Positions 1,827-10,265 of a DNA stretch of 33,805 bases are shown piece by piece (within the stretch, counting starts at the first letter, position 1; the number at the start of each line of letters is the position of its first letter). A model generated the notes under the pieces. The model worked only from the letters and a program-made list of their open reading frames with translations, was not told where the DNA came from and did no database searches. This stretch comes from Herpetosiphonaceae bacterium. GTDB lineage: Bacteria; Chloroflexota; Chloroflexia; Chloroflexales; Kallotenuaceae. The DNA is taken from assembly GCA_036374795.1 (NCBI GenBank), contig DASUTC010000280.1:1-33805 (forward strand), written 5' to 3'. Both the position numbers and the translations under genes were made by a program.

Positions 1827-2042
1827 CTACATGATCGGTCGTGGCAACCGATCCTTCAGCGTAGCAATCTGCTCGTCTGATGCGACCAGTTGTTGGCGCA
1901 GGTGTCGGGGAAGGAAGCCCTGCTTCGCGTTTGGACTCGCCGTCGATTCGACCGACCAGCCTTCGCGCCCGAGCTGCTGCTCGTCCGTGGCGAATGCCTG
2001 CTGGTTGATGTATTCTCGAACCATCGTCGTCCTGCGCTGCAT
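1827..2042 (-). CDS. small hypothetical protein (71 aa)
   Basis: The start was chosen at the ATG giving MQRRTTMVREYINQQAFATD because GGAGG lies 8 bases upstream; ATG at 2048 would be too close to it. The first half (REYINQQAF...LGREGWSVES) resembles small Chloroflexi proteins in which a short strand/helix unit ending in a 'GW.V' motif precedes transmembrane segments. No membrane segment follows here, and the C-terminus is Gln/Arg-rich (LRQQLVASDEQIATLKDRL). The function is unknown. It is divergent from the 2228-2446 gene and its promoter region carries palindromic sites, so it is probably regulated. The family resemblance is from memory and weak. Confidence 0.5.
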   Translation of the reverse strand: MQRRTTMVREYINQQAFATDEQQLGREGWSVESTASPNAKQGFLPRHLRQQLVASDEQIATLKDRLPRPIM

Positions 2043-2061
2043 AATCATTCCCTCCAACGGA

Positions 2062-2074
2062 TGGGATCATCCCA
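2062..2074. promoter_or_regulatory. 13-base palindrome in the leader of the small minus-strand gene
   Basis: TGGGATCATCCCA is a perfect odd palindrome. It lies about 20 bases upstream of the start at 2042, between the inferred transcription start (about 2109) and the Shine-Dalgarno. It could be an operator or a small leader structure. Confidence 0.35.
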
Positions 2075-2104
2075 CACCGTTGTTCCAAAGCGTACCTTAT
2101 TAGC

Positions 2105-2114
2105 TGTATATACA
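2105..2114. promoter_or_regulatory. operator-like palindrome TGTATATACA, copy 1
   Basis: Perfect 10-base palindrome. It falls at the predicted transcription start of the minus-strand promoter, where a bound repressor would block initiation. Confidence 0.5.
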
Positions 2115-2115
2115 C

Positions 2116-2144
2116 ATTGTATCATTTTGTATATACAAATTCAA
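2116..2144 (-). promoter_or_regulatory. predicted sigma-70-type promoter for the small minus-strand gene
   Basis: On the minus strand TTGAAT (2144-2139) and TACAAT (2121-2116) are separated by exactly 17 bases. The spacer contains the 14-base palindrome at 2126-2139. The predicted start is near 2109. Confidence 0.5.
2126..2139. promoter_or_regulatory. operator-like palindrome TTTGTATATACAAA, copy 2
   Basis: Perfect 14-base palindrome sharing the core TGTATATACA with the other two copies. It sits between the -35 and -10 boxes of the minus-strand promoter. Confidence 0.5.
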
Positions 2145-2160
2145 CCAATAATCAATGCAT

Positions 2161-2190
2161 TTTACATTGATTTGTGTGGTATTATATATA
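2161..2190 (+). promoter_or_regulatory. predicted promoter for the small plus-strand gene
   Basis: TTTACA (2161-2166) and TATATA (2185-2190) are 18 bases apart in an AT-rich island that stands out in GC-rich DNA. The expected start near 2197 is inside the third palindrome. Confidence 0.45.
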
Positions 2191-2191
2191 G

Positions 2192-2207
2192 TAGTGTATA
2201 TACACTA
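2192..2207. promoter_or_regulatory. operator-like palindrome TAGTGTATATACACTA, copy 3
   Basis: Perfect 16-base palindrome with core TGTATATACA. It overlaps the predicted transcription start of the plus-strand gene and ends 20 bases before its ATG. Confidence 0.55.
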
Positions 2208-2227
2208 TTGTTCTTGGAGAAGACTGA

Positions 2228-2446
2228 ATGAAGATTACACGTCGATCGGATACGGGGAAAGGCGGGCATCTGCTGATCTCGGTTCCCGCCAACCGGATCG
2301 CCGAGGTTGAGGCGGCGCTCAACTTTCTTGAGGCACAGCGCCAGCAGCGGGGATCGCAGATCATCATTGACGTGATGCTTCGAGCGGCGAAGCGGAGCGG
2401 CTGGAAACCGGACTCTCAGGTGGACCCAGCGATGCCGAGGTCGTGA
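2228..2446 (+). CDS. small protein, possible DNA-binding autoregulator
   Basis: 72 residues with GGAGA 7 bases before the ATG. The order is a basic N-terminus (KITRRSDTGKGG), a likely strand (HLLISVPA), a long helix (AEVEAALNFLEAQRQQR), then a second helix (IIIDVMLRAAKRSG). A short strand followed by helices in a basic protein of this size would suit a ribbon-helix-helix-like fold, but I cannot assign a family. The case for a regulator comes mostly from context: three TGTATATACA palindromes lie in the divergent promoter region upstream. It is followed by a stem-loop. It could equally be an unrelated small protein. Confidence 0.6.
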   Translation: MKITRRSDTGKGGHLLISVPANRIAEVEAALNFLEAQRQQRGSQIIIDVMLRAAKRSGWKPDSQVDPAMPRS

Positions 2447-2462: not shown

Positions 2463-2500
2463 CCGTCTCGCCGCGCTCCTATCGGAGAGGTAGGAGACGG
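2463..2500 (+). terminator. stem-loop after the small plus-strand gene
   Basis: Arms CCGTCTC (2463-2469) and GAGACGG (2494-2500) enclose a second possible pairing, CTCCTA with TAGGAG. It begins 17 bases after the stop. Only a weak TTTG follows, so an intrinsic terminator is possible but not certain. Confidence 0.45.
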
Positions 2501-2754
2501 GGAGGTTTGAGAACAACCATTATCGGCATCACTCGAACCGATGGTGTTCCCGGTAGCAGAGCTTGATCGAGGAAGGCGAACGTCGTCGCGAGGATGCGAT
2601 TCCACTGGGTGCGGTACAGCCGCAGATCGGTCAGCGCCCGGTCGAGCACCTCGGCGGGCGATGAACCGCCAAACAGGATACAGAACGAGAGCCAGGGGAG
2701 CATTTCGCGCCCTGGGTCAGATCCAGGACCCATGCGGTGGTGGCATGATCGCAA
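2479..2754 (-). CDS. doubtful short frame downstream of the 239-residue protein
   Basis: A minus-strand frame of 91 codons contains a protein-like middle (AEVLDRALTDLRLYRTQWN, then ILATTFAFLDQALL). It lies just after the 2779-3498 gene on the same strand but in a different frame. No clear ribosome binding site was found. It might be a remnant of a disrupted gene. The family is not recognised. Confidence 0.2.
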   Translation of the reverse strand: MRSCHHRMGPGSDPGREMLPWLSFCILFGGSSPAEVLDRALTDLRLYRTQWNRILATTFAFLDQALLPGTPSVRVMPIMVVLKPPRLLPLR

Positions 2755-2778
2755 CGCGACGTGACGAGCAGCGGCTGC

Positions 2779-3498
2779 TTATCGTGCTGGCGGGGCCGAC
2801 AGGCCAGACCCCGGCCACGCCACATACGGGAGCGAGCGATTGAAGCTGCGCTTGACGTGCGAATACGGGAGAAACAGGTCCTGCGCCGGATCGTACTTGA
2901 GCGTCTGAGCGGTGATCAACGAACCATACTGGACCGCTGTGACCGCTTCGGGTAGGTGCGTCAGCACGGTACCACCCGCCATCTCTGCGTGCAGCCACAC
3001 ATACACCGTGTTGAGCGGCGTCAACCACGCCGCCTGGTCCGCCGACACGGCGTGCGCGCTGATGGGGATCGCTGGAGTCGGGGAGCTATTGATGATCGCG
3101 GCTTGCGTGAGGCCAAAGATCAAGGCGGGATACTGGGTGAGCGGGACCTGATTCTCGACGTAGAACTGCCGCGCACCAACAGCCCCAGCGCAGGGAAGGG
3201 GACCATGGAACCGCGCATCGGCGGCGAAGGCGTAGGCATGCGCGGGGCGTACTGGATAGGGCTGCGATTGGGTCGGCATGAGCCGCGCCCCGTGAACGAG
3301 CCGCGTGGGGGCGGCATAAAGGCCGTAGGTGTCCGACCACGCTACGAGGTTGTCCGCGCGCGGCGTGAAACTTTGCCAGACGACCGTGGGATGGTGGGGA
3401 TCGTTGACCGGCTTCGCGATGACGATCATACGGTTGGTGGCCTGGATCACGTGCAGATCGGCGGGATCAATAAGCAACTGGAGCGAACAGGTTGGCAT
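2779..3498 (-). CDS. unrecognised beta-rich protein, 239 aa
   Basis: The start was set at the ATG giving MPTCSLQLL because AGGAG lies 8 bases upstream. The sequence alternates short hydrophobic and polar stretches with many aromatic residues (TVVWQSFTP, VAWSDTYGLYAA, TVYVWLHAEMAGGTVL), which suggests a beta-sandwich. There is no signal peptide and no membrane segment. The layout recalls a scattered family of about 200-residue proteins of fungi and filamentous bacteria that have a 'V.W..F....N.V.W...Y..Y' block and a late 'VYVWLQ' block; no function is known to me for it. The last 25 residues (after KYDPAQDLFLPYS) look like an unstructured tail. Neighbours give no functional clue. Confidence 0.6.
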   Translation of the reverse strand: MPTCSLQLLIDPADLHVIQATNRMIVIAKPVNDPHHPTVVWQSFTPRADNLVAWSDTYGLYAAPTRLVHGARLMPTQSQPYPVRPAHAYAFAADARFHGPLPCAGAVGARQFYVENQVPLTQYPALIFGLTQAAIINSSPTPAIPISAHAVSADQAAWLTPLNTVYVWLHAEMAGGTVLTHLPEAVTAVQYGSLITAQTLKYDPAQDLFLPYSHVKRSFNRSLPYVAWPGSGLSAPPAR

Positions 3499-4004
3499 GG
3501 GGGGTACTCCTATCACGAGCTAAAATGCGTGCTGGGTGTGGTTGCACCGAACGTAGGACCATTTCATCATAGAGCGACCGGCATGATGGATCGGTTTCCG
3601 GTAGCAAAAGCGGTAGAGCAGGTGATACAGGGACAAGCTCAGGTTGCAGCCGACGCGATCGGGGTCATCGAGGAGGTGCTGGCACGGGTGGCGTCGTCGG
3701 TTGCGACGCAAGGACCGCACGGCGACGATGCGACGGGACCAGGACGGGGCAGACCGGTACGCCTGCTCCTGGCGACCCTCACGATCGATGTCCTATCTGG
3801 TGCTCCCCTGGTCGGCGGCAGGAGGTCAGGCACCATCGTCTCGCGCCGCGTCGCAGCTCTGCGCTACAATAGCATGCAGCCCCACACGCCGACACGCGCT
3901 CGATCCAGAAACCAGCGGTCGTCCTGATAGACGCGCAGATCGGTGATGTGACTCCTTCCGAGCACCAGGGTGGCGCGGGTACCTCCCCGCAACCTGCTGA
4001 CCGC
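3499..4004. other. region without a clear gene
   Basis: Both strands have open frames, but none has a good start signal and coherent composition. A stretch near 3864-4052 on the minus strand (TLVLGRSHITDLRVYQDDRW) looks protein-like and may be debris of another gene. Confidence 0.4.
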
Positions 4005-7640: not shown

Positions 7641-10265
7641 CTAGGAAGCGCCCTGTGCGGAATCGGTCGCTAAAGCTATCGCCACTGCTTGCTCCATGGT
7701 CAGCTGGTAGCCTTCTTCCCAGAGCTCGATAAAGGCTATGTGGCTCAGATGTTCTCGAGCTGCTGCCAGCTGTTCCGTGTAGAGCTGATAGCGGGTATGA
7801 TCGGGGGATCGTCGTAGCCCACCTACCTTTTCCCGCTGGCGCGCCGCTGCTCCAAAAAGGCGGATGGCATATGCATGACGCCGACGCCGGGTAGCCGCTG
7901 CCGCTAATCCTTCCAGCGAGGCTACGATCTTCACAAGCTTATCAAGAGTCTGGGCTAGCTGCAGGCTCTCGGCGTACAGCGCATCCATGTGCTCATAGTC
8001 GTGTGCTGCAAACGCAAGATGCCCGAGGCTATGCAGCGTTTCAACGACCTTCTCAACCGCCCCGATCTCTTTCGCCAGGAGGAGGTTTTCAGACAGGTAC
8101 TGCTGAGCCCATTTGTATTTTCCCAGGAAGAGATATGAATCACCAAGAACCAGCAGCGTGTGGGCCAGGAGATGTTTAAATCCGTATTCGTGCGCATAAG
8201 GCAAGATACGTTTGCTGCGCTGAATGGCGTTTTGATACTCGCCTCTGGCGAACGCCACGGTCGCTAGATTATTCTGGATGATATTGCTTGCCTGGATTTC
8301 GCCCACCTTTTGAGCCACGGTGAGGCTTTCACAAAACCAGTATTCTGCGCGCTGGTAGTCACCTAAAGCCTCGGCGGTAGTTCCAAGGGTATTCAGAATA
8401 TGCACTAGATGGCGCGTATCGGGCAGCGAGCGCGCGAGCGCCAGAGCCTCCATGCTATAGTCGTACGCTTGCTGAAATTGCTCCTGCGACGTCACGCTGA
8501 TCGCCAGGTTGTTCAGGGTAGTGACCATCCCCAGGTGATCCTTGAGGCTCTGATAGACCTGGAGGGATTCTGTGAGCAACGCATGGGCCGAGTCACGATC
8601 CCCCTGAGCGTGAGCAAGCACCCCGGCGCTGTTCAGGGCCTTGGCCCGAGGCCCTGTTCCTTCATGTGGTGTCCGATCCAATACCAGGCCCAGCAAGCGC
8701 CGTCCCTCATCGAAATACCCGCGCATCAACCAGAAGCGTCCCAGCGATCCTACGAGACGAAGGGCCATATCGGGAGCGTGGTCCAACGACCACGTGAGGA
8801 CAGTGGAAAAGTTTGCCCGCTCGATCTCCAGGCGGTCTAGGCAGGATACCTGGTGTGGTCCTTTCAGTTCCGGCTCCAGTGTCTCGGCCAGCTGGAGATA
8901 GTAGGCTGCATGTCGCTGGTGGATGAGCGCCGCACTGGCATCCGCCGCAAGAATCGCCTCCGCGTATGTGCGGATCGTCGTCAACATGCTGATGCGTGGA
9001 TGCCCATCTGGTCCTGGTGATTGTTGCACCAGATGCTTGTCGATAAGCGTGAAGAGCCCGTCACGGATATCGATGCTGCGATCTTCAGGATCTTCACAGA
9101 TCGCGATAGCTGCCTCGGCGGTACATCCACCAACAAAGATGCTCAATCGCGCGAATAATCGCTGCGCTCCACGACCGAGCGTATCGTAGCTCCACGCAAT
9201 GGTACGCGTGATGGTTTGCTGGCGTTCGGGTCGATCGTGCGCCGTATCGACCAGAAGCGCGAGCGGGCTACGGAGTTGAGCGAGGAGTGCCGGGAGTGAG
9301 ACATGGGGCGCCCAGGCCGCTGCCAACTCGATGGCGAGAGGCAACCCATCCAAGTGCGTGCAGATGCCGACGACCGTAGTGACATTCTCTGGGAGCAGTG
9401 TGAAGTCTGGCTTGCGCTGCTGCACGCGCTCCACAAAGAGTGCTACCGCTGGGCTACGAGCGACATGGGTGATCGAAGGAAGGTGCGCCATATCTGGAAC
9501 TGCCAGCGGTGCCACAGGAACCTGCCATTCGCTGCGTAAATGCAGAGCGGTGCGGGAAGTGACGAGAATCGACAGCCGCCGACAGTGGGCCAGGAGGGTG
9601 CCGATCAGGGGTGCCGCGTCGATAATTTGCTCGAAGTTGTCCAGGACCAACAGGTGCTGCTGCTCGCGTAGGGCCTCCAAGATCTGTTGGAGCGATGTTT
9701 GCCGGTTATCCCCTTGCAGTTGGAGCGCCTGCTTGATCGTTGATGGAACCAGGATGGGATCACTGATAGGCGCGAGATCCACAAACGTAACGCTGCTGGC
9801 GAAATATGGCACGAGATCTATCGCAGCCTGGAGGGCCAGATGTGTTTTCCCGACACCGGGAGGCCCAAGGAGAGTCATAAGGCGGACATCGGGGCGCTGC
9901 AACTGTCGGCAAATGTGTGCCAGTTCGTCCGCCCGTCCGATCAGCGCTGTAGGCGGTCGTGGGATCTGGGCCAGACATGTGCTCGATGCGGGAAGCTGCC
10001 CATGGTCTACCCCGCGCTGTGGGAGTAGTGGATCTCGCTGACCGGTACGCGCAAAGCGGTTCAGCGCTGCACGCTCCGCGGGCGGTACACAGAGGCAATC
10101 CAGTAAGCGGATCAGGGTTTGTTTGCCAGGGCGGCGCACATTCTGCTCAATGCGCTTGATCGTCTCGATGGCACAACCGACGCATGTGGCGAGTTCAGCT
10201 TGCGTTAGATCCAGCGCACGGCGCTGCTGCTTGAGCCACGCTCCAAAGCTGGTCTCCTCTTCCAT
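7641..10265 (-). CDS. XRE-family / NB-ARC / TPR transcriptional regulator (STAND ATPase)
   Basis: 874 residues. The start at 10265 (MEEETSFGAWLKQQR) is supported by GGAGG 8 bases upstream; longer in-frame starts lack this. An XRE helix-turn-helix occupies residues of about 8-70 (LDLTQAELATCVGCAIETIK). An NB-ARC ATPase follows: Walker A GPPGVGKTHLAL near residue 130, Walker B LLVLDNFEQI near 205, then ILVTSRTALHL and a GLPLAIELAAAWA motif. The C-terminal half is a TPR array (ALNSAGVLAHAQGDRDSAHA, TTLNNLAISVT, ILNTLGTTAEALGDYQRAEY, IIQNNLATVAFARGEYQNAI). Such proteins are signal-responsive regulators in which ligand or partner binding to the TPRs releases the ATPase; the target is unknown. It is a single gene with no operon partner. 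It resembles the decayed fragment at 4005-4260 only in general architecture. Confidence 0.9.
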   Translation of the reverse strand: MEEETSFGAWLKQQRRALDLTQAELATCVGCAIETIKRIEQNVRRPGKQTLIRLLDCLCVPPAERAALNRFARTGQRDPLLPQRGVDHGQLPASSTCLAQIPRPPTALIGRADELAHICRQLQRPDVRLMTLLGPPGVGKTHLALQAAIDLVPYFASSVTFVDLAPISDPILVPSTIKQALQLQGDNRQTSLQQILEALREQQHLLVLDNFEQIIDAAPLIGTLLAHCRRLSILVTSRTALHLRSEWQVPVAPLAVPDMAHLPSITHVARSPAVALFVERVQQRKPDFTLLPENVTTVVGICTHLDGLPLAIELAAAWAPHVSLPALLAQLRSPLALLVDTAHDRPERQQTITRTIAWSYDTLGRGAQRLFARLSIFVGGCTAEAAIAICEDPEDRSIDIRDGLFTLIDKHLVQQSPGPDGHPRISMLTTIRTYAEAILAADASAALIHQRHAAYYLQLAETLEPELKGPHQVSCLDRLEIERANFSTVLTWSLDHAPDMALRLVGSLGRFWLMRGYFDEGRRLLGLVLDRTPHEGTGPRAKALNSAGVLAHAQGDRDSAHALLTESLQVYQSLKDHLGMVTTLNNLAISVTSQEQFQQAYDYSMEALALARSLPDTRHLVHILNTLGTTAEALGDYQRAEYWFCESLTVAQKVGEIQASNIIQNNLATVAFARGEYQNAIQRSKRILPYAHEYGFKHLLAHTLLVLGDSYLFLGKYKWAQQYLSENLLLAKEIGAVEKVVETLHSLGHLAFAAHDYEHMDALYAESLQLAQTLDKLVKIVASLEGLAAAATRRRRHAYAIRLFGAAARQREKVGGLRRSPDHTRYQLYTEQLAAAREHLSHIAFIELWEEGYQLTMEQAVAIALATDSAQGAS

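Follow-up and report, generated by a model that had tools for sequence, protein, structure and literature searches.

Divergent region and its palindromes

The window analyzed here is a stretch of 33,805 nucleotides from a Herpetosiphonaceae bacterium (Chloroflexales; GCA_036374795.1, DASUTC010000280.1), which corresponds to contig C280 of a 7.75-Mb genome. Positions 2043-2227 of the window (185 bases) form an AT-rich divergent intergenic stretch, in which the GC content is 34% as compared with 62% for the window, and a small gene lies on either side. The features assigned to the region are as follows.

1827-2042, minus strand: divergent partner, a small protein of no known family (MQRRTTMVREYINQQAF...), with a paralogue beside the C49 copy and in G001
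2105-2114, no strand: putative operator 1, TGTATATACA, exact match, overlapping the start predicted for the leftward promoter
2116-2144, minus strand: leftward promoter, -35 TTGAAT at 2139-2144, 17-base spacer, -10 TACAAT at 2116-2121, from the promoter scan and conservation in relatives
2126-2139, no strand: putative operator 2, TTTGTATATACAAA, exact core at 2128-2137, in the spacer of the leftward promoter
2161-2190, plus strand: predicted regulator promoter, TTTACA at 2161-2166, 18-base spacer, TATATA at 2185-2190, register as in relatives
2192-2207, no strand: putative operator 3, TAGTGTATATACACTA, exact core at 2195-2204, overlapping the start predicted for the regulator's promoter
2228-2446, plus strand: candidate autorepressor gene, 72 aa, pI 10.8, with a paralogue in this genome and, in six others, homologues that have like operators

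An earlier note on this DNA had described three palindromes with a shared core in the AT-rich region, one of them in the spacer of a minus-strand TTGAAT-17-TACAAT promoter and one at the predicted start of each promoter. All three were found as exact matches, and the promoter is present with the core of operator 2 in its spacer and operator 1 over its start; operators 1 and 3 occupy the two start points. The note had also called the divergent partner a protein of unrecognized family and the product of 2228-2446 small and basic, and both descriptions hold. The most likely start of the leftward gene is 2042 (ATG after GGAGGG), in line with the earlier interval, rather than the mechanically assigned 2057.

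The number of palindromes was compared with that in shuffled sequences. Shuffles of the whole window gave a mean of 0.14 matches to TGTATATACA with one mismatch allowed, against three exact matches observed. When the 185 bases were dinucleotide-shuffled 20,000 times, one TGTATATACA appeared in 86 shuffles and two or more in none; three copies of any 10-bp palindrome appeared in only five. A LexA box was also considered. This box has CTGT-N8-ACAG arms and is present before many SOS genes. Since the arms here are TGT-N4-ACA and the motif is confined to two loci in the genome, the assignment was rejected.

Two other features of the window were observed. At 2479-3516 (minus strand), frames of 245 aa and then 91 aa lie on one strand in different phases, and a frameshift may have split what was a single gene. 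The segment 15520-30881 (minus strand) reads like a cluster for L-arabinose use (isomerase, epimerase, kinase, arabinofuranosidases and ABC transporter), the genes being named from translations only.

Association of the palindromes with homologues of the 72-aa protein

Five copies of TGTATATACA occur in the 7.75-Mb genome (three here and two on contig C49), where about 1.2 are expected from base composition, and all five lie just upstream of the 72-aa gene or its paralogue. On C49, the sites are flanked by paralogues of both proteins, that of the 72-aa protein being 74% identical and that of the divergent protein 77% identical. The 23-bp spacing is kept, and the third position is a degenerate site, TGTATATACT.

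In a set of 60 genomes that comprised the window's own and relatives, homologues of the 72-aa protein were detected in seven. Kouleothrix aurantiaca, also of the order Chloroflexales, was added by a scan of named genomes; its contig corresponds to G439. A profile search of 400 genomes of the phylum gave clear members in this order only, with no clear homologue outside it. Among plasmids, one weak match inside a larger Nocardia protein was judged unrelated, and no homologue was found in phages or on viral contigs.

The earlier proposal depended on the palindromes being conserved upstream of homologues. They are present at nine of the ten close homologues that were examined, and at most of these their register relative to the two divergent promoters is the same. 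Two or three copies with the GTATATAC core lie 5' of the gene in G001, G003, G004, G052, both copies of G013 and Kouleothrix. The set of three is incomplete at some loci, G052 being without the site at the regulator start and Kouleothrix without that in the leftward spacer. The G002 homologue has no sites, its protein is without the conserved Arg-Arg, and the genome has no TGTATATACA, as would be expected of a decayed copy.

Across 82 genomes of the order, the strict pair TGTATATACA-N(5-20)-TGTATATACA was located at three places, all of which are homologue loci. For the looser GTATATAC pair, nine places were found in these genomes, and seven of these are on homologue-bearing contigs. Counted by genome, the looser pair is found in 5/8 with a homologue and 2/74 without (Fisher p = 4e-5, the related genomes not being independent). 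The two further GTATATAC pairs (G433 and G046) are away from any homologue. That of G046 (L080, G046:C15:109593-109631) lies upstream of a GntR/LacI-type regulator gene, in a genome without the small protein, and probably serves as the operator of that regulator itself. Elsewhere in the relatives, single exact sites are mostly within genes and look like chance occurrences; they were set aside.

The motif can also arise without this protein, because the palindrome pair was found on 66 viral contigs and the fetched DNA encodes no homologue. This would agree with the palindromes being chance products of AT-rich intergenic DNA. However, the local shuffles never gave two copies, and conservation across genera in a constant register refutes this explanation, whose probability we regard as negligible.

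Promoters and register of the operators

Operators in the window: The core of operator 2 lies wholly inside the leftward spacer, and the operator in its 14-base form shares one base with the -35. Operator 3 is centered 9 bases past the -10 of the regulator promoter. This promoter is weaker by sequence here, and operator 3 has the register seen in G003, G004 and Kouleothrix, where the promoters are stronger.

Operators in the relatives: The promoters are sigma-70-like. The leftward promoter is conserved at G001, at C49 (TTGCTT-17-TATAAT), at G003 and G013 (both TTGACT-17-TATACT) and before glsB in G052 (TTGCAA-16-TATAAT). In all leftward promoters compared (the window, C49, G003, G013 and G052 glsB), an operator centre lies 17-18 bases before the -10 end. 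A second operator is centered at +6 from the leftward -10 end at six loci, with G013 as the exception. At the regulator promoter, five loci (the window, G001, G003, G004 and Kouleothrix) have the operator centre at +8/+9 relative to the -10 end. The spacings between operators are 23 and 66-68 bp in C280, C49, G001, G003 and G004, and in a five-way alignment the three operator cores are invariant islands amid otherwise diverged DNA.

Operators at such positions, in the spacer and at the start points, should block the polymerase. This argues against the idea that the small protein uses the palindromes as an activator or a DNA-organizing protein instead of a repressor. Furthermore, near-consensus hexamers with 16-18-base spacers at several promoters do not suggest dependence on an activator. 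Nothing specific favors activation, apart from the fact that some ribbon-helix-helix (RHH) proteins both activate and repress, as reported for AmrZ (PMC3325190). Thus, we consider an activating or organizing role quite improbable.

Remote homologue with a changed palindrome

G003 possesses a second, remote homologue at C179, with 35-38% identity. Upstream of its gene, three TGTACGTACA palindromes at -127, -108 and -50 are arranged in a similar layout around a TTGACA-16-TATACT promoter. The TGTACGTACA pair occurs once in the 82 genomes, at this locus. In the presumed strand of the protein, HLLISV is changed to RLYLSV, the main changes being at alternate positions; judging from this one case, these positions would face DNA in an RHH protein. 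As protein and operator change together, this single case of coevolution provides strong sequence-level evidence that the 72-aa protein would be the cognate autoregulator.

These observations also bear on whether another regulator encoded elsewhere, for example of the GntR, Phd or LexA type, binds the palindromes, with the small protein merely a target. DNA carrying TGTATATACA was used for the complex of the Enterococcus faecalis Phd antitoxin (PMC13034048), and the G046 pair precedes a GntR/LacI-type gene, both of which would fit such a regulator. In contrast, the sites accompany the 72-aa gene in different genomes and genera and are rarely found in its absence, the partner genes change while the operators and the regulator gene stay, and the operator sequence of the remote homologue is a distinct one. 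Therefore, regulation by another protein is unlikely, and the 72-aa protein is very likely the cognate regulator of these operators.

Product of 2228-2446

No family match to the 72-aa protein was obtained in Pfam, NCBIfam, PHROGs or PADLOC, in agreement with the earlier statement that its family is not recognized. RHH profiles of Pfam, NCBIfam and PHROGs gave no match, nor did ten members searched against Pfam at E values up to 10, and no solved relative was found by sequence. Two AlphaFold2 runs (from five sequences only) gave low-confidence models with an extended N-terminus followed by helices at 21-36/41 and 42/44-56, with pLDDT values of 65 and 67. These models had no structural match in the PDB. 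In an RHH protein, two strands pair in the dimer, hydrophobic and DNA-facing residues alternate in the strand, and helix B begins with Gly-x-Ser or Gly-Ser. The HLLISV pattern of the presumed strand together with the conserved G42-S43, and the hydrophobic moment of the strand (1.63 at 170 degrees versus 1.07 at 100 degrees), are suggestive only. The strand-helix-helix topology of the models is compatible with an RHH protein, and we give this fold about even odds.

Partner genes

Relatives of the window's partner protein were found next to the C49 copy (77% identical) and in G001 only, among the 82 genomes of the order. In its C-terminal third, the window protein differs from these relatives, which end in ...LVVTYHRP or similar; thus, the copy at 1827-2042 may be truncated or rearranged.

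In other genomes, the partner differs. Both copies of G013 have Asp23 (PF03780, E = 1.5e-25) as the partner, and next comes a membrane protein whose end is weakly Asp23-like and which we read as AmaP-like. G052 has a second, three-operator region adjoining the regulator gene, 5' of a GlsB-like gene (PF04226, E = 2e-12). The partner in Kouleothrix is GroEL (PF00118, E = 1.8e-31) and that in G004 is a pentapeptide-repeat protein. The earlier note had described control of two divergent genes. This layout is present in the window, but the two-gene view is too narrow because the partner changes between genomes.

Several of these partner genes are stress or envelope genes. From the partners elsewhere, the window partner may also be a stress or envelope gene, although this is a weaker inference, and a stress role or stress regulon of the regulator is plausible. 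However, Asp23 genes away from the regulator in the same genomes had no convincing upstream operator, the best-scoring places being weak. The strongest candidate, L160, scored 14.6 bits, about that of the weakest accepted site; it was rejected, since the equivalent stretch in another genome (L165) scores as well and the place is probably inside the gene.

Three further observations were made around these loci. At L060 (G052:C63), positions 8483-8583 carry a full three-operator region with 68 and 23 bp spacing that precedes a GlsB-like gene and has no regulator gene on its other side; it looks like a copied regulatory cassette. At L064 (Kouleothrix aurantiaca LJCR01000456.1), positions 2545-2620 carry a second TGTATATACA pair, 66 bp apart, between an uncharacterized 291-aa gene and an AAA-type ATPase gene, and this is probably a further target region. 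In addition, two related proteins of 128-132 aa without a known Pfam family are encoded at L058 8963-9349 (minus strand) and L063 3257-3655 (plus strand), less than about 1.5 kb from the regulator in G003 and G001.

Many small basic DNA-binding proteins that regulate themselves are antitoxins, and hence the 72-aa protein could be the antitoxin of a self-regulating toxin-antitoxin pair. However, no co-directional neighbor is conserved, the next genes differing in kind at each locus inspected, and the divergent partners come from several unrelated families. A type II system, which has a conserved adjacent toxin gene, was rejected for the same variability of neighbors, and we regard an antitoxin role as very unlikely.

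Proposed regulation

Based on these results, we propose, with a probability of roughly 0.8, that the 72-aa protein is a dedicated autorepressor of itself and its divergent neighbor through the three operators. The earlier note had put forward the 2228-2446 product as the candidate for a dedicated repressor, and this reading gains support from the operators tracking the homologues and from the changed operator of the remote one. The proposal is built on what the sequences show: operators, promoters, their register, the near-exclusive association with homologues, and an operator that changed with its protein. We infer that the product, presumably as a dimer, binds the 10-bp palindrome TGTATATACA, possibly with an RHH-type strand that reads the DNA, and that it likely represses rather than activates. 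At the leftward promoter, bound protein would fill the -35/-10 spacer and the start point. At the regulator's own promoter, it would sit on the start point. RNA polymerase would be excluded, and both genes would be kept low until a signal or loss of the protein releases them.

Tentatively, and with less than even confidence, the system may represent an undescribed, Chloroflexales-specific family of very small repressors that control envelope and protein-folding stress genes (Asp23 with AmaP-like, GlsB-like, GroEL). Such a family would gain new targets behind a standard divergent-promoter cassette, with at least one natural switch of operator specificity, from TGTATATACA to TGTACGTACA.

Comparison with known systems

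A self-repressing small DNA-binding protein is an ordinary kind of system. In the literature searched, we found no earlier description of this one, and the 72-aa family and its operator code are undescribed there; neither did we find a regulator of Asp23 or GlsB genes in Chloroflexota. The present system offers one candidate regulator for such genes, together with its operator, the geometry of the promoters and a natural variant whose specificity seems to have changed. It would also provide two very small repressors, each with operators of its own, that are naturally orthogonal.

The closest likeness is to RHH autorepressors (Arc/MetJ/CopG), among them MobC of plasmid RA3, an RHH autorepressor whose operator lies between the -35 and -10 of its own promoter (PMC4175270). 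The shared features are a small basic protein, a presumed short strand with alternating hydrophobic residues, two predicted helices and a palindrome in the spacer. The 72-aa protein differs in having no sequence or structure match to any member. Further differences are the divergent promoter pair, the wide separation of the three 10-bp palindromes and the absence of a link to conjugation. As for Phd of Enterococcus faecalis, no similarity of the 72-aa protein to the Phd/YefM families was found, and it has no toxin partner.

Asp23/AmaP and GlsB genes are known from Firmicutes and others, and here the operators precede such genes in two relatives (Asp23 with an AmaP-like gene, and a GlsB-like gene). 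In Staphylococcus, Asp23/AmaP/GlsB-type genes are governed by an alternative sigma factor, whereas a small repressor is proposed for those in Chloroflexales.
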